Source of the DNA: SAR86 cluster bacterium
Lineage (GTDB): Bacteria; Pseudomonadota; Gammaproteobacteria; Pseudomonadales; Pseudohongiellaceae
Direction of reading: 5' to 3'
Assembly: GCA_002746215.1 (NCBI GenBank)
Contig: NVWI01000005.1
Location: forward strand, 62,879-101,488
DNA length: 38,610 nucleotides
Translations under genes and position numbers: made by a program
The notes under the pieces: generated by a model
What the model saw: the letters and a program-made list of their open reading frames with translations, nothing else
Told to the model about the DNA's origin: nothing
The model's database searches: none
Shown: positions 18,653-38,610 of the stretch, in pieces
Numbering within the stretch: position 1 is the stretch's first letter
Layout: each line of letters begins with the position of its first letter

Positions 18653-19165
18653 GTGTTAGATATTGCTCATAACGTCCCTAAAAATCATTTTGAAGACTGG
18701 CAGCTGGAACTGGCTGCCAAGCTGTTAAAAGATTTTGATAGCGAAGAACACAACCTGTTGGATGTGCTGCATTTTTTTCAGGGTACTTTTGGTTATATAG
18801 ATAAAGAACTCATCCCTCTATTAGCAAAATTTTTTAATTTATCCCGCGCTGAAGTACACGGTGTTATTAGTTTTTATCATGACTTTAGAGATGAAAAACC
18901 CGCTGCTTATGTCTTGAAAATATGCCAGGCAGAATCCTGCCAGGCCATGGGTTCTAATAAATTAACAACTGAACTTAAGGCGGCTCTAAACATAGATTTT
19001 CATGAAACCAGCACTGCAACTGATATCACCTTGGAACCCGTATATTGTCTGGGAAACTGTTCTTGCTCCCCCAACCTAATGATCAATTCACAAATGTTCA
19101 GCCGTGTTACTAGTGAGAGTTTAACGCAAATATTACAAGGGCTTACGGAAGAGCAGCATGACTAA
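18653..19165 (+). CDS. fdsG: NAD-dependent formate dehydrogenase, gamma subunit (NuoE-like)
   Basis: The 170-residue protein is a thioredoxin-fold [2Fe-2S] subunit like NuoE, with ligands C91, C96, C132 and C136 (ICQAESCQAMG and YCLGNCSC). The N-terminal helical part with VISFYHDFR is typical. The start is GTG at 18653, supported by AGGA seven bases upstream. It passes electrons within the FdsGBA complex in the cytoplasm. It overlaps fdsB by eight bases (ATGACTAA), so the two are translationally coupled. Confidence 0.93.
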   Translation: MLDIAHNVPKNHFEDWQLELAAKLLKDFDSEEHNLLDVLHFFQGTFGYIDKELIPLLAKFFNLSRAEVHGVISFYHDFRDEKPAAYVLKICQAESCQAMGSNKLTTELKAALNIDFHETSTATDITLEPVYCLGNCSCSPNLMINSQMFSRVTSESLTQILQGLTEEQHD

Positions 19166-20723
19166 AATTTATCTACCAAGAGAAACTACGGCCCTTTCAT
19201 TGCATGTTGAAGAAGTAATATTGGCGATAAGGAAAGAAGCAACTAAACATGACCTTGAACTACAGATAATCAGAAATGGCTCACGCGGTGCTGCCTGGCT
19301 TGAGCCTCTGCTGGAAATTGAATATGAAGGTAAGCGTATAGCTTATGGCCCAATAAGAGCTGCTGATATTAACAGCCTGTTTAAGGCAGACTTTTTACAT
19401 GCTGGAGAGCATGAATTAAAACTTGGCGCTATTGATGACATTCCATGGTTTAAGCAGCAGCAAAGATTAACATTTAAGCGTAGCGGCAATACCGAAGCGC
19501 TATCGATAGACGATTATCGTAAGTTTAATGGCTTTGCTGGATTAGAAAAAGCACTCAAATCAGACAAGCAAGAAATTATCCAGACCGTTCTAGATTCTGG
19601 CTTGCGCGGTCGAGGTGGTGCAGCTTTCCCTACCGGCATAAAGTGGCAAACCGTTGCGGATGCCGATGCTGATTGCAAATACATTGTCTGCAATGCTGAT
19701 GAAGGCGACAGTGGCACTTTTTCTGATCGCTTATTGATGGAAGGTGACCCTTATTGCTTGATCGAAGGGATGTTAATTGCGGGTATTGCAGTAGGCGCAG
19801 AACTTGGCTTTATCTATCTTCGCTCCGAATACCCCTTAACTAAATTAATACTCGAAGAAGCCTTAATTAAGGCCCGAGAAGCAGGTTATCTCGGCAACAA
19901 AATACAGGGCAGCGATTATAACTTTGACATACGCTTACACATAGGTGCTGGCGCTTATATTTGTGGTGAAGAAACGTCACTGCTGGAAAGCCTGGAAGGT
20001 AAACGTGGACAGGTCAGATTCAAACCTCCCCTACCAGCATTGGAAGGCCTGTATGGCAAGCCTACTGTGGTTAATAATGTCATCACTTTTGCTTCTGTCC
20101 CTCTTATACTCTCTAAAGGTGCAGACTATTATGCAAATTTTGGTCAAGGAAAATCCTTAGGCACTATGCCATTTCAACTCAGTGGAAATATTAAACACGG
20201 CGGTTTGGTGGAGCTTCCTTTCGGTCTGACATTACGTGAATTAATAGAAGACTTTGGTGGCGGAACTTATTCAGGCAAACCAATCGGTGCCGTTCAAGTT
20301 GGCGGGCCATTAGGGGCTTATTTTTCCGGCGATCAACTTGATACATCTCTGGATTATGAAAGCTTCAGTGCTGCCGGCGGCATGCTGGGTCATGGTGGTA
20401 TTGTGGTGTTTGACGAAACCGTGGATTTACTTAAACAAGCACGTTTCGCCATGGAGTTTTGCGCTATTGAATCCTGTGGTAAATGCACACCCTGTCGGAT
20501 CGGCTCTGTACGTGGAGTAGAGGTCATTGATCAAATTCTGGATGCTCAAGATCCATCAGATACAGGCCATCATTACGAATTACTTGAAGACCTTTGTGCC
20601 ACCTTGGAAGATGCCTCACTCTGTGCCATGGGTGGATTAACACCAATGCCTGTGCGAAGCGCTGTGAAATTGCATCAACTGTCAACTTCGACTGTCAACT
20701 ACAGAGAAGAGGCAGACCAATGA
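19158..20723 (+). CDS. fdsB: NAD-dependent formate dehydrogenase, beta subunit (NuoF-like)
   Basis: The 521-residue subunit holds FMN and the NAD site and reduces NAD+ with electrons from formate. After an N-terminal thioredoxin-like extension without cysteine ligands (about 1-80) come the glycine-rich loop GRGGAAFPTG (151-160), NADEGDSGTFSDR, CGEETSLLESLEG and the [4Fe-4S] motif ESCGKCTPCRIG near 437-446, with a fourth cysteine in ASLCAMGG near 488. It overlaps fdsG by eight bases and fdsA by four (ATGA), as expected for a tightly coupled operon. Confidence 0.95.
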   Translation: MTKIYLPRETTALSLHVEEVILAIRKEATKHDLELQIIRNGSRGAAWLEPLLEIEYEGKRIAYGPIRAADINSLFKADFLHAGEHELKLGAIDDIPWFKQQQRLTFKRSGNTEALSIDDYRKFNGFAGLEKALKSDKQEIIQTVLDSGLRGRGGAAFPTGIKWQTVADADADCKYIVCNADEGDSGTFSDRLLMEGDPYCLIEGMLIAGIAVGAELGFIYLRSEYPLTKLILEEALIKAREAGYLGNKIQGSDYNFDIRLHIGAGAYICGEETSLLESLEGKRGQVRFKPPLPALEGLYGKPTVVNNVITFASVPLILSKGADYYANFGQGKSLGTMPFQLSGNIKHGGLVELPFGLTLRELIEDFGGGTYSGKPIGAVQVGGPLGAYFSGDQLDTSLDYESFSAAGGMLGHGGIVVFDETVDLLKQARFAMEFCAIESCGKCTPCRIGSVRGVEVIDQILDAQDPSDTGHHYELLEDLCATLEDASLCAMGGLTPMPVRSAVKLHQLSTSTVNYREEADQ

Positions 20724-23563
20724 GCCTTGATAAAGACATCGATTTTGGAACACCGGAATCTAAAAATCAGGTCTTAGTCAGCCTGGAAATTGATGGACAT
20801 CAGGTCATCGTGCCGAAAGGTACCAGTATCATGCGAGCGGCCAAACAACTGGGCACTAGCATTCCCAAACTTTGTGCTACGGACAATCTTGAAGCCTTTG
20901 GTTCCTGCCGCTTATGCTTAGTCGAAATTGAAGGCCGACGTGGCATGCCTGCATCTTGCACTACGCCTGTAGAAGCTGACATGGTTGTGCATACACAAAC
21001 TGATAAACTGGCTAAATTACGCAAAGGCGTAATGGAGCTTTATATTTCAGATCATCCTCTGGATTGTTTAACCTGTAGTGCTAACGGAGATTGTGAATTA
21101 CAGGATACGGCAGGAGAAGTTGGTTTACGTGAAGTTCGTTACGGCGGCTACCAGGGTGAAAACCACCTTGCAGCAACAACTGACAACTCCAACCCCTATT
21201 TCTCATTTGATGCCAGCAAATGCATTGTCTGCTCACGCTGTGTCAGAGCCTGTGATGAAGTACAGGGAACTTTTGCGCTTACCATTAGCAAGCGCGGCTT
21301 TGAATCACATGTAAGCGCGGGTATCGAAGAAAGTTTTCTCGCGTCAGAATGCGTCTCTTGTGGTGCCTGTGTACAAGCCTGCCCGACGGCTACATTGATG
21401 GAGAAATCAGTCATTGAACAGGGCATTCCAGAACATAGCATTGAAACCACTTGCGCTTACTGCGGTGTAGGCTGCACCTTCAATGTTGAAATGAAAGGTG
21501 AGCAAGTGATCAGAATGGTGCCCTCTAAGAAAGGTAAAGCCAACGACGGTCATGCCTGCGTTAAAGGCCGGTTTGCCTGGGGCTATGCCAGCCATAAAGA
21601 ACGTATTCTAAAACCCATGTTGAGATCTTCCATCGATGATCCCTGGCAAGAGGTCAGCTGGGATGAAGCTATTCAGTTCACCGCTAAGCGTTTTCAAGAA
21701 ATCCAACAACAATATGGACGTAAAGCTATTGGCGGCATTACCTCATCACGCGCCACCAACGAAGAAGTTTTTGTTGTACAGAAGCTGGTTCGAACCGCCT
21801 TTAAAAACAATAATGTTGATACTTGCGCTCGTGTCTGCCACTCACCAACCGGCTTTGGATTAAATAAGACACTTGGCACTTCTGCTGGCACGCAAGATTT
21901 TGCCAGTGTTGAAAGTGCTGATGTGATTTTACTTATTGGAGCCAACCCAACCGATGCTCACCCGGTTTTTGCTTCTCGAATGAAGAAACGTTTGCGCGAA
22001 GGTGCACAAATTATCGTTGCCGACCCAAGACGCATCGATATGGTTGAAAGCCCACACATTAAAGCTGTTGCGCACCTGGCCCTAAGGCCAGGCACTAATG
22101 TTGCGCTTATCAATGCCTTTGCACACACAATTGTTGAAGAAGACCTGGTTGACTGGGACTATGTCAATCAACGTTGTGACAAAGAACTGTTTGAACACTG
22201 GCTAGCCTTTATCAAACAAGCAAATAATGCACCGGAATCAGTTGCCACCCTTTTAGGTGTCGATGCTGAAACACTTAGACAGTCCGCACGGCTTTATGCC
22301 GAGGCGGAACGTGCAGCAATTTATTATGGTTTAGGTGTTACCGAACATTCTCAAGGTTCCACCATGGTCATGGGCATGGCGAATCTAGCCATGCTAACTG
22401 GCAACCTTGGCTTTAATGGTTGTGGTGTCAACCCACTACGTGGGCAAAATAACGTGCAAGGTTCCTGCGATATGGGTTCATTTCCCCATGAATTACCCGG
22501 TTACCGCTCTGTCAGTGATGACCTAACCCGGCAAAGTTTTGAACAGGACTGGGGGCTGAGTCTGGATAATGAACCCGGCTACCGCATACCAAATATGTTT
22601 AACGAAGCCATAAGTGGCACATTCAGAGGCATGTACATTCAAGGTGAAGATGTTGCGCAATCTGACCCGGATATTCACCATGTTGAAGCGGCTCTACGTA
22701 GCCTTGACTGCCTTGTGGTGCAAGATTTATTTCTCAATGAAACCGCAAAATATGCCCATGTTTTTCTGCCAGGGACTTCTTTTTTAGAAAAAAATGGCAC
22801 CTTCACCAACGCCGAACGTCGCCTGGGTCGGGTCAGGCCTGCTATCAAACCTCGTACAGGCAAGCATGAATGGCAAATAACCATGGATATTGCCCAGGCT
22901 ATGGGTTATCCAATGCACTATGAACATTCATCAGAAATCATGCAAGAAATTGCGCGTTTGACCCCAACATTTGCCGGTATCAGCTTTGACAAACTTGATC
23001 GTGAAGGCAGCGTGCAATGGCCATGCAATGATGAAGCGCCAAACGGAACCCCCATCATGCATGTCGGTGGTTTTGTCCGCGGCAAGGGCGCCTTTGAAAT
23101 TACCGAATTCGTCGCAACTGAAGAAAAAGTTACCCCTAAATTTCCCTTACTTTTAACCACAGGAAGGATTCTTAGCCAATACAACGTTGGGGCACAAACA
23201 CGTCGTACCGAGAACAATGTCTGGCATCCAGAAGATATTCTGGAAATTCATCCGCATGATGCGGATGAGCGTGGCATTAAAGACGGCGACCTGATCATGC
23301 TGAAAAGCCGTAAAGGTGAGACATCTCTACATGCTCTAATCTCAGAACGTATGCAGCCGGGCGTTGTCTATACCACTTTTCACATGCCTTTTTCTGGCGC
23401 CAACATTGTCACAACGGAATACAGTGACTGGGCGACTAACTGCCCTGAATACAAGGTTACCGCAGTACAGTGCAAATTAACTGATCATATTTCTGAATGG
23501 CAACAGCATTTTCTGGATTACCAAGAAAAGCAAAATACAACCAACAAGGTTATTCCTGCTTAA
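20720..23563 (+). CDS. fdsA: NAD-dependent formate dehydrogenase, alpha (molybdenum) subunit
   Basis: The catalytic subunit oxidises formate to CO2 at a bis-MGD molybdenum centre. Starting at ATG 20720 (ATGA overlap with the fdsB stop, GAGG upstream) it has 947 residues, the usual size; a longer in-frame reading to 20594 would add 42 residues unlike any relative. Iron-sulfur ligands are: [2Fe-2S] C52, C63, C66, C80; His-Cys3 cluster H112, C116, C119, C125; [4Fe-4S] C168/171/174/178 and C211/214/217/221; and the cluster beside the cofactor C245, C248, C252, C280. The molybdenum ligand is C373 followed by H374 (ARVCHSPT), so this is the cysteine, not selenocysteine, type. No fdsD follows. Confidence 0.96.
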   Translation: MSLDKDIDFGTPESKNQVLVSLEIDGHQVIVPKGTSIMRAAKQLGTSIPKLCATDNLEAFGSCRLCLVEIEGRRGMPASCTTPVEADMVVHTQTDKLAKLRKGVMELYISDHPLDCLTCSANGDCELQDTAGEVGLREVRYGGYQGENHLAATTDNSNPYFSFDASKCIVCSRCVRACDEVQGTFALTISKRGFESHVSAGIEESFLASECVSCGACVQACPTATLMEKSVIEQGIPEHSIETTCAYCGVGCTFNVEMKGEQVIRMVPSKKGKANDGHACVKGRFAWGYASHKERILKPMLRSSIDDPWQEVSWDEAIQFTAKRFQEIQQQYGRKAIGGITSSRATNEEVFVVQKLVRTAFKNNNVDTCARVCHSPTGFGLNKTLGTSAGTQDFASVESADVILLIGANPTDAHPVFASRMKKRLREGAQIIVADPRRIDMVESPHIKAVAHLALRPGTNVALINAFAHTIVEEDLVDWDYVNQRCDKELFEHWLAFIKQANNAPESVATLLGVDAETLRQSARLYAEAERAAIYYGLGVTEHSQGSTMVMGMANLAMLTGNLGFNGCGVNPLRGQNNVQGSCDMGSFPHELPGYRSVSDDLTRQSFEQDWGLSLDNEPGYRIPNMFNEAISGTFRGMYIQGEDVAQSDPDIHHVEAALRSLDCLVVQDLFLNETAKYAHVFLPGTSFLEKNGTFTNAERRLGRVRPAIKPRTGKHEWQITMDIAQAMGYPMHYEHSSEIMQEIARLTPTFAGISFDKLDREGSVQWPCNDEAPNGTPIMHVGGFVRGKGAFEITEFVATEEKVTPKFPLLLTTGRILSQYNVGAQTRRTENNVWHPEDILEIHPHDADERGIKDGDLIMLKSRKGETSLHALISERMQPGVVYTTFHMPFSGANIVTTEYSDWATNCPEYKVTAVQCKLTDHISEWQQHFLDYQEKQNTTNKVIPA

Positions 23564-23696
23564 TTAAAATTTCCGCCTTCAAACAGATCAATGTGCAAAT
23601 AAATAAATTTCACCTCTAATCTTGTTTCATTGCCTTTTATTACTTACATCTCTGAGGTATTCTCCTGCCTCCAAAATTCAGTATCAAGGAACTCTT

Positions 23697-25877
23697 TTGG
23701 CTAAGTACATACGGATATTAATTTGCTTATCACTGAGCTTGCCAACTCTGGCCTACGCACAGCCAACTGCTGTCTCTGCCAATAATAAGTCTATTGAAAT
23801 CCAATACACGAATACGCCTCCTGTCATAGACGGCCTTATCGATGATGCCGTTTGGGAAAATGCAGCGTTTATAGATGATTTACACCAGGTAAATCCGGTT
23901 GAATACGCCACTCCTTCTGAGCGCACAGATATCTATCTGCTTTATGATACTGATGCGCTTTATGTTGCTGTCCGATTATTTATTGATGAGGCAGACCTGA
24001 CTGACAATATATTGCGCAGAACCGGTAATGTCATTCAAGATGACAATATTGTTATCAATGTAGACCCCTTTAATAATCAACGCACTGGCTATTATTTTGG
24101 TGTAAACGCAAATGGCGTGAGAGTCGACGGTATTTTTCAAAATGTCACCCAACCTGACAACGACTGGGACAGCATCTTTTATGTTGAAACCTCTCGTTTT
24201 GAAGGTGGCTGGATTGCCGAGTTTGCCATCCCGTTCAAGTCTCTGTCCTTTGATCCAAACTCAAGTACCTGGGGCCTGAATTTTACCCGCGCGATTCAAA
24301 GTCGTAATGAAATGATGGCATGGCAAAGTTATGACCGGCGTTTCGATCCAAGTAGTTATGGGGAATTAACAGGCCTAGACAATATCAATCAAGGGCTTGG
24401 ATTAGATATCACACCATCATTCAGCATGAACAGTGCTCGACGTTTTTCGCCTGATAATACAAATGAAAATTTTGAACCCAGCCTGGATCTGGTCTATAAA
24501 ATCACGCCATCCCTTAACGGCTCTTTCACCGTTAACACCGATTTTTCTGCCACCGAGGTCGATAACCGTCAGGTCAACCTGAGTCGTTTTAATCTATTTT
24601 TCCCAGAAAAACGTGACTTCTTTCTACGTGAGTCAGACATTTTTCAATTTGGTCGTATTGGCGCAAGCGGCACGCTTGGTGGCGGGCAAAATGGCCGACC
24701 CTTCTTTTCCAGAAATATCGGACTGGGCAATTCCGGTGGATCGGTTGATCTGAATTATGGCGCCAAAGTCAGTGGTCGTATTGGCAACCTGGACATAGGC
24801 GCATTGAGCATTCGTCAGGCAGAACAAGCTACTGCTGATGCCAGCACGCTTTCAGTCGTGCGTGCCAACATGGGGCTAACAGGCGAATCTACCTTGGGCT
24901 TTATTATGACTGATGGTAATCCTCGCTCGAATCTGGATAACAGCTTATTTGGGGCTGACTACCTCTATCGAAACTCTGGCCTTTCAGGCGGACGCAGTCT
25001 TGAAGTTTCTGGCTGGTACCAAGCTTCAGATACAGAAGGCATAAGTGATAATGACAGTGCTGCAGGGGTAGGTTTTGCACTCACCAACAACAATGGTTTT
25101 AATGGCGGTGTTGCTGTAAAACGCTTTGAGAGTAATTTTAATCCCGCCCTGGGTTTTGCTAACCGCACAGGGGTGGAGGATTTTTCCGTTCAATCGGGAT
25201 ACAGCCATCGTTTTTCAAGTGGCTACCTACAAACCTACGACTTCAGACTAACCGGACGTCGCTACGATAGCATTGGTGGTGGACTAGAATCCCAGACCAT
25301 CCTGTTCCAGCCTTTTAGCATTTCCAACAGGAGTGGCGACCGATTTTTATGGATATCAAAATATAATAAAGAAGTTCTTATAGCTCCTTTTGAGATCTCT
25401 CCTGGCGTCATTATTCCCGCTGGTGAATATCACTTCAACGATGACGGTTTTACCTTTAGAACTGCAGGCTTCAGAGAATGGTCCGGTAGCATCAGCTACA
25501 TCCATGGAAATTTTTATAGCGGGACTTTTGATCGTTCCTGGGCTGATATCACCTGGAAACCAAGCCCTAAGTTCAATACCACAATAAGCTATGATATTCA
25601 GTTTGTCGATTTGCCCGAAGGTAAATTTACCACTCGAATCTTAAGTGGCGGCATCGACTATATCTTTTCAAAAAGCCTGTCATGGATCAACCTGATTCAA
25701 TACGACAATGTCAGTGAAACGATGGGTATCAACATGCGTTTACACTGGATTCCTGAGGAAGGTCAAGAGTTCTTCTTTGTAATAAATCAAGTTCTGGAAG
25801 ATTACGATCGCGATAATCGCTTCCATTCTGCATTAACCGATATAACCGCTAAATTCAGTTATACCTTCCGTTATTAG
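23697..25877 (+). CDS. DUF5916 protein with N-terminal CBM9-like domain, TTG start
   Basis: The protein (726 residues) has a signal peptide (AKYIRILICLSLSLPTLAYA, cleaved before QP), a carbohydrate-binding-module-9-like domain (about 40-220, with PPVIDGLIDDAVWENA and YLLYDTDALYVAVRLF) and a long C-terminal region matching DUF5916, predicted as an outer-membrane beta-barrel and ending in FRY. The TTG at 23697 is chosen because AAGGA lies six bases upstream and the signal peptide then starts correctly; an open frame runs back to another TTG at 23622, but its residues do not form a leader. Substrates are unknown; ligand capture at the cell surface is an inference from the fold. Confidence 0.85.
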   Translation: MAKYIRILICLSLSLPTLAYAQPTAVSANNKSIEIQYTNTPPVIDGLIDDAVWENAAFIDDLHQVNPVEYATPSERTDIYLLYDTDALYVAVRLFIDEADLTDNILRRTGNVIQDDNIVINVDPFNNQRTGYYFGVNANGVRVDGIFQNVTQPDNDWDSIFYVETSRFEGGWIAEFAIPFKSLSFDPNSSTWGLNFTRAIQSRNEMMAWQSYDRRFDPSSYGELTGLDNINQGLGLDITPSFSMNSARRFSPDNTNENFEPSLDLVYKITPSLNGSFTVNTDFSATEVDNRQVNLSRFNLFFPEKRDFFLRESDIFQFGRIGASGTLGGGQNGRPFFSRNIGLGNSGGSVDLNYGAKVSGRIGNLDIGALSIRQAEQATADASTLSVVRANMGLTGESTLGFIMTDGNPRSNLDNSLFGADYLYRNSGLSGGRSLEVSGWYQASDTEGISDNDSAAGVGFALTNNNGFNGGVAVKRFESNFNPALGFANRTGVEDFSVQSGYSHRFSSGYLQTYDFRLTGRRYDSIGGGLESQTILFQPFSISNRSGDRFLWISKYNKEVLIAPFEISPGVIIPAGEYHFNDDGFTFRTAGFREWSGSISYIHGNFYSGTFDRSWADITWKPSPKFNTTISYDIQFVDLPEGKFTTRILSGGIDYIFSKSLSWINLIQYDNVSETMGINMRLHWIPEEGQEFFFVINQVLEDYDRDNRFHSALTDITAKFSYTFRY

Positions 25878-37046: not shown

Positions 37047-37583
37047 ATGACCCAAATTCATGTGCTCACCGGCCCAGAGTCGTCAGGCAAGACGACTTTG
37101 GCATCTACACTTGCCAATTATTGGTCAGCCCCTCTGCTATTGGAACAATCGCGGGCCTATTTAGATAAAAAAGCCGATGACAAAGTCAGTGATCCAGCTT
37201 TCATTTATCAACAATCCGATATCCTTGCTATTGCAAAACAGCAAATCGCAAAAGAACATGAGGCCCTTCTACAACAGCCAGAACTGCTTATTTGTGATAC
37301 TGACCTGTTAGTTCTGATTATCTGGAGTGAGGTTAAATTTGGTCACTGTGATAAATGGATTTTAGAACAATTTGAGCAAGAGCTTGATGCCAACTCACGT
37401 CACTACATACTTTGTGATTGGCAAATCCCCTGGGAGCCTGACCCACTAAGAGAAAACTCTGAGGACAGAGAGCAGCTATTTCGCTTATATCAAGCCAAAT
37501 TGAAAGCCTATGGCATAGATTACCTGGCTGTAAGTGGTAGTAATATGCAAAGATTTAAACAAGTCCAAGCGGCAATAGCTTAG
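37047..37583 (+). CDS. NadR-like AAA kinase (possible nicotinamide riboside kinase)
   Basis: The 178-residue protein has a Walker A motif GPESSGKTT (9-17), a Walker-B-like segment LLICDTDLL (residues 85-93) and the region WQIPWEPDPLRE typical of the kinase domain of NadR. In NadR this domain phosphorylates nicotinamide riboside; the adenylyltransferase half of NadR is missing here. It begins four bases after the peptidase stop, so is probably co-transcribed. A TPP riboswitch and TonB receptor lie 600 bases on, so phosphorylation of another vitamin cannot be excluded. Confidence 0.8.
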   Translation: MTQIHVLTGPESSGKTTLASTLANYWSAPLLLEQSRAYLDKKADDKVSDPAFIYQQSDILAIAKQQIAKEHEALLQQPELLICDTDLLVLIIWSEVKFGHCDKWILEQFEQELDANSRHYILCDWQIPWEPDPLRENSEDREQLFRLYQAKLKAYGIDYLAVSGSNMQRFKQVQAAIA

Positions 37584-37592
37584 TTAGCAGTA

Positions 37593-37958
37593 TTAGAATA
37601 AATACACTTTAGGCGCAAACCTACGATATTGATCTTCGTTGATGGTGCTGGCAAGTAGTAAGCGATGTAAAATTTCTTCACGTCTGCACCATTTTTGAAT
37701 ATTCAATAATTTTTTGACTTCTTCCGCATTCAGATAACCCAGCTCAATTGCCACATCACCAAACAAACCACCGGTTTGCTCCTGAATCTCAAGCAGATTA
37801 TTAATTTTTTCCATATCCATCAAATTGAGCTTTAGACTAAGCGCCCCAAGTGTCGTTCCTACACGACCCCAGCTACCAAGAATGGGCTTATCCGCCTCAT
37901 CCAGCCCCAGCTCTCTAGATAAATATTCTATAAACAATTTTGTGCCTCTAATTGCCAT
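37593..37958 (-). CDS. Small protein with GspE/MshE-N-terminal-like repeat
   Basis: The 121-residue soluble protein contains INNLLEIQEQTGGLFGDVAIELGYLN, cut here as the motif LLEIQEQTGGLFGD plus VAIELGYLNAEEVKKLL, the kind of helical segment seen at the N-terminus of type II secretion/type IV pilus ATPases, where it can bind cyclic-di-GMP. There is no ATPase domain, so this would be a stand-alone adaptor. Its function is unknown. It is convergent with the NadR-like gene (nine-base gap) and divergent from the riboswitch-controlled receptor. Confidence 0.55.
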   Translation of the reverse strand: MAIRGTKLFIEYLSRELGLDEADKPILGSWGRVGTTLGALSLKLNLMDMEKINNLLEIQEQTGGLFGDVAIELGYLNAEEVKKLLNIQKWCRREEILHRLLLASTINEDQYRRFAPKVYLF

Positions 37959-38104: not shown

Positions 38105-38117
38105 AATGATTATCATT
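38105..38117. promoter_or_regulatory. Fur-box-like palindrome
   Basis: AATGATTATCATT is a perfect 6-1-6 palindrome and agrees with the central Fur consensus AATGATAATCATT except for the middle base; over the full 19-bp box the match is about 14. It lies about 50 bases before the probable -35 of the riboswitch promoter, and upstream of the divergent 121-residue gene, so either could be the target. Confidence 0.45.
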
Positions 38118-38195: not shown

Positions 38196-38204
38196 AAAGT
38201 GCCC

Positions 38205-38300
38205 GTCATCCTGAGGGGTGGCTATTGCCTGAGATGTTTCTACTAAAAAAGAAACGAACCCTTTGAACCTGAACCAGCTAATACTGGCGTAGGAATAGGG
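38205..38300 (+). ncRNA. TPP riboswitch (THI element)
   Basis: The conserved core is complete and in order: GGGGTGGC (38215-38222), GCCTGAGAT (38227-38235), a variable hairpin GTTTC/GAAAC (38236-38255), ACCCTTTGAACCTGA (38258-38272), and CCAG...CTGG with the TAATACTGGCGTAGGA segment ending near 38294. P1 can form from TCCT (38209-38212) and AGGA (38291-38294). It senses thiamin pyrophosphate and normally lowers expression of downstream thiamin genes. Its only visible target is the TonB-dependent receptor at 38362. Confidence 0.95.
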
Positions 38301-38304
38301 TTAC

Positions 38305-38333
38305 GAAGTTGCGCATCTGCGACTTTGCCTTTT
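38305..38333 (+). terminator. Terminator-like hairpin of the riboswitch expression platform
   Basis: AAGTTGCG and TGCGACTT (38306-38325) pair with G-U wobbles around a CATC loop and are followed by TTGCCTTTTCT. It lies just 3' of the aptamer and could compete with it, causing premature termination when TPP is bound. Confidence 0.55.
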
Positions 38334-38356
38334 CTCCGTGAGTATTATTAGCGGAG
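38334..38356 (+). promoter_or_regulatory. Helix sequestering the receptor's ribosome binding site
   Basis: CTCCG (38334-38338) is complementary to CGGAG (38352-38356), and GGAG is the Shine-Dalgarno of the ATG at 38362. The 5-bp stem with a 13-base loop could close the site, giving translational control in addition to or instead of termination. Confidence 0.5.
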
Positions 38357-38361
38357 TAAAC

Positions 38362-38610
38362 ATGAGACATTTTTTCCCAATTGCCCCAAGCCTAACAGCA
38401 GTTATTTTATATAGCGCATGCAGCACATTTGCTGTCGCGCAACAAAGTAACCCCTCTATAAACCCTACCATCGAAGAAGTTATTATCAGCGCTGACTTTT
38501 TCAATACGCCTTTAATGCAAAGCAGTAATAGTGTGAGTGCAATTTCCACTGATGCCATACAAATGCGAGGCGCACAACACCTTGAAGAAGCCTTCTCATC
38601 AGTTCCAAAC
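38362..38610 (+). CDS. TonB-dependent receptor, N-terminal fragment (probably thiamin uptake)
   Basis: The frame begins at ATG 38362, with GGAG six bases upstream, and runs open for 83 codons to the window edge. The signal peptide is cleaved after about residue 26 (FAVA|QQ), a TonB-box-like segment IEEVIISAD (38-45) follows, and then the start of the plug domain (SVSAISTDAIQMRG, LEEAFSSVPN). The barrel lies outside the window. Receptors under a TPP riboswitch in gammaproteobacteria are predicted thiamin or thiamin-precursor transporters of the outer membrane, so this is the likely role; the Fur-like sites upstream leave open iron-responsive control as well. Confidence 0.85.
   Translation, partial: MRHFFPIAPSLTAVILYSACSTFAVAQQSNPSINPTIEEVIISADFFNTPLMQSSNSVSAISTDAIQMRGAQHLEEAFSSVPN

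Follow-up and report, generated by a model that had tools for sequence, protein, structure and literature searches.

A TPP riboswitch ahead of a predicted outer-membrane thiamin importer in a SAR86 cluster bacterium, and a neighbouring NadR-like kinase as candidate thiamin kinase

The window analysed here, a stretch of 38,610 nucleotides from a SAR86 cluster bacterium (contig C5:62879-101488 of genome G000; completeness 97.99%), ends in a TPP riboswitch followed by the gene for a TonB-dependent receptor. We propose, with a probability of about 0.88, that ample TPP makes the riboswitch repress an outer-membrane importer for thiamin or one of its vitamers, and that this importer opens a scavenging route, its genes scattered over the genome, in a thiamin auxotroph. 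The pair of riboswitch and receptor is real and of a known kind (omr1, OMthi), and we infer that it is functional. Points counted against the importer were a siderophore-receptor model as the top named family, solved structures of siderophore or metal receptors as best matches, a PnuT gene that does not adjoin the receptor, a Fur-box-like palindrome and leader folds without a switch. The new, testable claim concerns the neighbouring NadR-like kinase as a thiamin kinase. Features of the locus are collected in Table 1.

Table 1. Features at the 3' end of the window (window coordinates).
Feature	Position	Strand	Basis
Gene for a NadR-RNK-like (AAA_28) kinase of 178 aa, a candidate thiamin kinase	37047..37583	+	PF13521 1.6e-26, distribution, AF2 model
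Small ORF, 121 aa, between kinase and riboswitch	37593..37958	-	Similar frames beside riboswitch in G001, G004 (by eye)
TPP riboswitch aptamer (RF00059)	38204..38312	+	cmscan; sole TPP match in genome
Terminator-like hairpin right after aptamer core, 10 pairs (4 G-C), tail CCUUUUCUCC	38304..38327	+	Pattern scan, MFE folds
Hairpin pairing CUCC with Shine-Dalgarno GGAG (38353-38356)	38334..38356	+	ViennaRNA
TonB-dependent receptor gene, 5' part	38362..38610, continuing to G000:C5:103387	+	Open frame from ATG 38362

A cmscan search of the window against all of Rfam returned the TPP aptamer as the sole match above the gathering score (73.1 bits against 54.3, E = 1e-12), covering the full model (1-105) with one pair flagged as non-standard; no second TPP match was found across the 3.13 Mb genome. 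The original prediction had begun the aptamer at 38205, accurate to one base, and the check that it proposed, a significant covariance match, came out in its favour. The aptamer ends 49 nt before the receptor ATG, and the GGAG lies five bases ahead of that codon. Formation of the terminator-like hairpin was seen in MFE folds, and that of the hairpin occupying the Shine-Dalgarno sequence both in MFE folds and in pair probabilities, with a pairing probability of ∼1 whether the aptamer was enforced or not. By eye, both hairpins were recognisable in the leaders of three of four congeners, and the arms AAGTTG...CAACTT of the terminator-like hairpin were seen again in three of the four. A ligand-dependent switch was sought in the leader folds and none was shown; both hairpins formed with and without the aptamer enforced, so that the folds favour neither transcriptional nor translational control.

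A perfect palindrome resembling the Fur core (AATGATTATCATT, 38105-38117) lies 86 nt 5' of the aptamer, and is the only one of its type in the window, where 0.15 would be expected with up to one mismatch. For 30 riboswitches we compared the preceding 250 nt (60 nt in the case of L030) with a Fur consensus. The best match of the window was 15/19, a score also reached by its shuffles, and congeners gave 11-13/19; Fur as a conserved control was rejected on these scores. No such palindrome was found upstream of the riboswitch in the congeners.

The next gene had been predicted to encode a TonB-dependent receptor, and this was confirmed. The window stops inside the gene, and when the frame was extended on contig C5 (locus L002) it gave a protein of 715 aa in which Pfam recognises a Plug domain (6.4e-15) and a TonB barrel (1.8e-29); two ambiguous bases in the gene fall outside the window. 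By eye, the protein has a signal peptide and a TonB-box-like segment, IEEVIISA. Its top named family was the siderophore receptor model TIGR01783, at 126.6 bits and below the cut-off of 223.5, while the B12 receptor model TIGR01779 gave 49.3 bits, below its cut-off of 599.7. The best matches among solved structures were siderophore or metal receptors. In a tree of receptors, 22 riboswitch-linked gamma receptors, including that of the window, fell on one side of a branch (support 100), and seven receptors of E. coli (FhuA, FepA, CirA, Fiu, FecA, BtuB and PqqU) on the other. The position of the receptor apart from these seven came out in favour of the original prediction. The gamma receptors and 15 riboswitch receptors of Bacteroidota formed two separate groups (support 100 each), joined at 89 with long branches; OMthi of B. 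theta itself was absent from this tree.

We surveyed 57 genomes, covering the window's own genome, genus, family and order. TPP riboswitches at E ≤ 0.001 occurred in 33 of these, with 36 matches altogether. Thirty matches were inspected directly, and 22 precede a relative of the receptor (the window's own and 21 at 33-78% identity to it), six precede ThiC and two precede binding-protein-like proteins (by eye). G035 is a 23rd genome with riboswitch and receptor; among the remaining five matches, three stand before ThiC by position (G040, G046 and G052) and two were left out of the inspection. The pair is therefore present in 23/57 genomes. ThiC was absent from all 23 and present in 33 of the 34 others, the exception, G049, having ThiG and ThiE. 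ThiE above cut-off was not found in any of the 23 pair genomes, three congeners of the window giving sub-cut-off matches of 22-25 bits. Full-length ThiG was likewise not found in these 23, whose matches, where present, were short and confined to part of the profile (positions 135-222). That of G005 was just over the cut-off, and some others, including that of G000, exceeded it when combined with neighbours in frame; we read these matches as related TIM barrels and not as ThiG. The carrier family PF04973 scored above 150 bits in 23/23 pair genomes and in 1/34 others (G055), a co-occurrence with a Fisher p of 5e-15, which ignores relatedness. Two genera (g4 and g8) hold both states, and the traits switch together within them. 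The riboswitch, the receptor, these gene presences and absences and the co-distribution are direct observations. By their gene content the 23 pair genomes are predicted to be thiamin auxotrophs. The original reading of the receptor as a predicted thiamin importer is well supported, the genome being without ThiC, full-length ThiG or ThiE above cut-off.

ThiL was present in all 57 genomes, and thiamin pyrophosphokinase (TPK, PF04263) was found in none of the 57; as a control, the TPK profile matched in 7 of 14 control genomes. Imported thiamin must therefore first become TMP, or TMP itself be imported, and a TMP-forming thiamin kinase is to be expected. In G000, ThiL appears twice at an identical score (C4:175165-176142 and C17:588967-589944), possibly a duplicated assembly segment.

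We looked for the inner-membrane part of the route among PnuC-family proteins. The idea that PnuT-like or thiamin kinase genes might follow the receptor failed in G000, where PnuT lies on another contig (C1:59891-60427), but held elsewhere: PnuT follows on the same strand in six genomes, together with a ThiK-like kinase in G007, G038, G043 and G045, the other two being G018 and G023. The gene order is receptor, PnuT and APH kinase in G007, G043 and G045; G038 has a small protein inserted before PnuT, and G018 and G023 have receptor, small protein and PnuT. These genes are split over two contigs in G047, and in G000 the small protein and PnuT stand together on C1. Two of seven tested small proteins encoded before PnuT (G018 and G038) exceeded the cut-off for YkoF (PF07615), and all seven were below that for Thiamine_BP (PF01910; 15.1-22.8 against 24.9), as was the G000 protein, at 20.7. 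The G000 carrier scored 163 bits against PF04973 (cut-off 27.3), and its NCBIfam name is PnuC (TIGR01528, 71 against 42.45 bits). In a quick tree with long branches it fell into a group of 45 rows (support 97) with the operonic PnuTs, apart from the PnuC proteins of E. coli and G055. Clade and operon context thus suggest that it is the thiamin carrier PnuT.

The route that we propose would run as follows. At low TPP the receptor would be made, and TonB would energise uptake through it. PnuT would carry thiamin inwards, with the small YkoF/thiamine-binding-like protein encoded beside it; a kinase would then trap thiamin as TMP, which ThiL would convert to TPP. Repression by TPP, thiamin as the substrate and the order of these steps are what we infer.

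The kinase step is most likely performed by the NadR-like protein encoded upstream, whose gene, left unmentioned in the original prediction, ends 620 bases before the riboswitch. The protein matched the NadR model TIGR01526 at 53.1 bits (cut-off 341.15), over profile positions 167-320 only, and has 24% identity to the E. coli NadR domain. The ThiK model TIGR02721 was not among its NCBIfam matches up to E = 0.01. An AF2 model (pLDDT 89.8) had the NadR structure 8x7f_A as its best match (Z 21.0, rmsd 2.1, 170 residues), and NadR chains ranked first (Z 17.8-21.0), followed by deoxynucleoside and thymidylate kinases at Z ∼16. The model would fit a small-molecule kinase, and because these other kinases follow at Z ∼16, the fold leaves the substrate undecided. 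The NadR paper on L. lactis (PMC7221760), in its passages on the RNK domain, presents that domain without substrate. In the loci viewed, the kinase gene is upstream of, or divergent from, the riboswitch, and so is not itself under riboswitch control.

Within the window's family, strong AAA_28 matches (>80 bits) were present in 17 of the 18 genomes with the receptor and in 0 of the 18 others. Outside the family no match of this strength occurred in the five receptor genomes, whereas three of the other 16 genomes (G048, G055 and G056) have the kinase without a riboswitch receptor. By position, 10 of the 17 kinase genes lie within 2 kb of the riboswitch, and seven are farther away or on another contig. 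An APH kinase stands behind PnuT in five genomes (G007, G038, G043, G045 and G047); the best model for that of G007 was ThiK TIGR02721, at 91.1 bits and below the cut-off of 299.45. A profile built from these five proteins scored its own members at 347-374 bits, another G043 gene at 119 and a G048 match at 76, but reached at most 50 bits in any of the 17 AAA_28 receptor genomes and had no match in G000. Among the 23 pair genomes, therefore, 17 have the NadR-like kinase, five the ThiK-like APH kinase and one (G044, L114) neither found, although its riboswitch receptor and PnuT are present. The AAA_28 kinase and a PnuT-linked APH kinase occurred together in 0/57 genomes. We consider it reasonably likely that the NadR-like AAA_28 protein acts as a thiamin kinase which, without being orthologous to ThiK, takes its place and fills the gap from thiamin to TMP in ThiL-bearing auxotrophs of Gammaproteobacteria and Bacteroidota.

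To place the kinase in a wider context, we scanned GTDB with a 17-row kinase alignment (A1) and kept the best 80 of 573 relatives, 46 from Pseudomonadota and 34 from Bacteroidota by title. Among the matches listed, close homologues occur in records titled Pseudohongiella, OM182, one SAR86 MAG and many Gammaproteobacteria/Pseudomonadales. With R1, a TPP model made from 30 riboswitches of the surveyed genomes, a riboswitch was found in 51 of these 80 loci with flanks of up to 8 kb (34/46 Pseudomonadota and 17/34 Bacteroidota). The survey density of 36 per ∼195 Mb (a hand-made sum of rounded sizes) predicts ∼0.2 for 1.03 Mb, the loci being non-independent through relatedness, and some of the 51 match by construction, because the same records built R1 (for example, L135 is G001). 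Rfam confirmed the riboswitch above gathering in 10/10 gamma loci checked; a gathering scan of 13 loci, mostly Bacteroidota, passed two (L175 and L182). When six Bacteroidota loci positive with R1 were scanned permissively with Rfam, each matched RF00059, L198 above gathering and the other five below it (35.9-50.4 against 54.3 bits, E 0.0025 or better). The next frame after the riboswitch was long and receptor-like in all 16 Bacteroidota loci viewed (of 17), two being cut by the contig end, and local HMMs gave the order small protein, PnuT, kinase in six Bacteroidota loci. Since the gamma and Bacteroidota receptors form two groups, the kinases share a thiamin context and not one closely related receptor; in all, the AAA_28 kinase was found near two receptor clades and two PnuC/PnuT clades.

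R1 found no TPP riboswitch in the other 29 of the best 80 of 573 AAA_28 loci. The 3' flank is shorter than 500 nt in five of these 29 and longer than 7 kb in 14; four of them were scanned with Rfam (E up to 0.1), and none gave a TPP riboswitch. Seven (L139, L141, L164, L171, L173, L176 and L210) share a kinase sequence with G026, G021, G035, G016, G030, G012 and G025, in which the riboswitch receptor is farther off or on another contig. TPK was not found in any of 20 wider genomes searched, whose completeness is unstated.

A different role for the kinase, as a nicotinamide riboside kinase paired with a PnuC riboside carrier and only incidentally placed beside a thiamin receptor, is in our judgement rather improbable, but it has several observations in its favour. 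Both the fold and the nearest named families are those of the NadR RNK domain, and a PnuC-AAA_28 pair occurs in G055, a genome with ThiC. The kinase lies directly behind a PnuC of another clade, which also holds non-TPP PnuC proteins, in eight Pseudohongiella-type loci (L146, L151, L155, L162 and L166-L169); no other strong PF04973 gene was found in any of these eight genomes, so that either thiamin is the cargo of this PnuC or the pair works on nicotinamide riboside. Four further loci (L178, L193, L199 and L209) have a PnuC-AAA_28 pair with an APH-family gene adjoining on the other strand and no TPP riboswitch, which means that the two kinase families are not mutually exclusive everywhere. 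Against this role stand the kinase's restriction to receptor genomes in the window's family, its alternation with the ThiK-like kinase among the 23 receptor genomes and the riboswitches in its homologous loci. In addition, the only PF04973 gene of G018 sits inside the TPP-riboswitch operon, leaving no other PnuC-type carrier for the kinase. The pairs in L178, L193, L199 and L209 are possibly a separate salvage module.

Two other substrates were weighed for the receptor. Uptake of a precursor (HMP or thiazole) in place of intact thiamin would be in line with TPP riboswitches that also precede precursor-type carriers (G049, ThiY-like by eye), but we regard it as very unlikely, as ThiE, which joins the precursors, is absent above cut-off and full-length ThiG is absent too. 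Import of a siderophore or other iron ligand, with the riboswitch a relic, is the least credible reading: the top named family and the upstream Fur-like palindrome speak for it, but the model score is under its family cut-off, the palindrome was not found in congeners and in 23/23 genomes the receptor clade goes together with the riboswitch and with lost thiamin synthesis.

The thiamin importer that we favour resembles omr1/OMthi of Bacteroidota, SAR86 and other bacterioplankton, for which passages of two papers (PMC5613172; PMC10881298) likewise describe TonB-dependent receptors, proposed to import thiamin, that have a TPP riboswitch in their leader or close to it. Those on Bacteroides OMthi give PnuT as its inner-membrane partner (PMC5613172; PMC10881298), whereas PnuT is unlinked in G000; the gamma receptors are also a clade of their own, apart from the Bacteroidota riboswitch receptors. 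According to a section of PMC5613172, B. thetaiotaomicron without thiamin synthesis needs about ten times more thiamin when it also lacks OMthi or pnuT.

The PnuT-Tnr3 system of Bacteroides shares a PnuC-family carrier and a trapping kinase with our route. Tnr3, however, is a thiamin pyrophosphokinase, a family not found in the 57 surveyed or the 20 wider genomes, all 57 of the surveyed set having kept ThiL. ThiK (YcfN, APH family) shares the proposed reaction from thiamin to TMP, followed by ThiL, but the window kinase belongs to the P-loop AAA_28 family and has no ThiK model match. With the ribosylnicotinamide kinase domain of NadR it shares domain family and fold; unlike NadR, it is a stand-alone protein of 178 aa in which no NMNAT part was matched, and has a thiamin gene context. 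In the open-licence literature we found no paper naming a NadR-like thiamin kinase; a description in closed papers is possible.

Thiamin auxotrophy is common in plankton. In surveys, omr1 figures as an importer whose specificity is unclear (PMC12442306), and one survey reports MAGs of Flavobacteriales and Cytophagales that lack key enzymes of biosynthesis but have ThiL and omr1 (PMC12236431), so that the step from thiamin to its monophosphate is unaccounted for. With a candidate enzyme for this step, such genomes could be read as those of complete thiamin users, and NadR-like kinases that adjoin PnuC-family carriers would be annotated differently.

Some minor observations were made along the way. 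Locus L163 (CAMDML010000014.1) is from a MAG titled Klebsiella pneumoniae, and its kinase falls among those of the window's relatives; the title looks mislabelled. The 5.5 kb contig of L161/L110 (G031:C36) has a receptor piece on either side of the kinase and riboswitch, as though it were circular or misjoined. Elsewhere in the window, at 19158-25877, frames that match complex I domains of NuoF and NuoG type precede a CBM9/DUF5916 protein.
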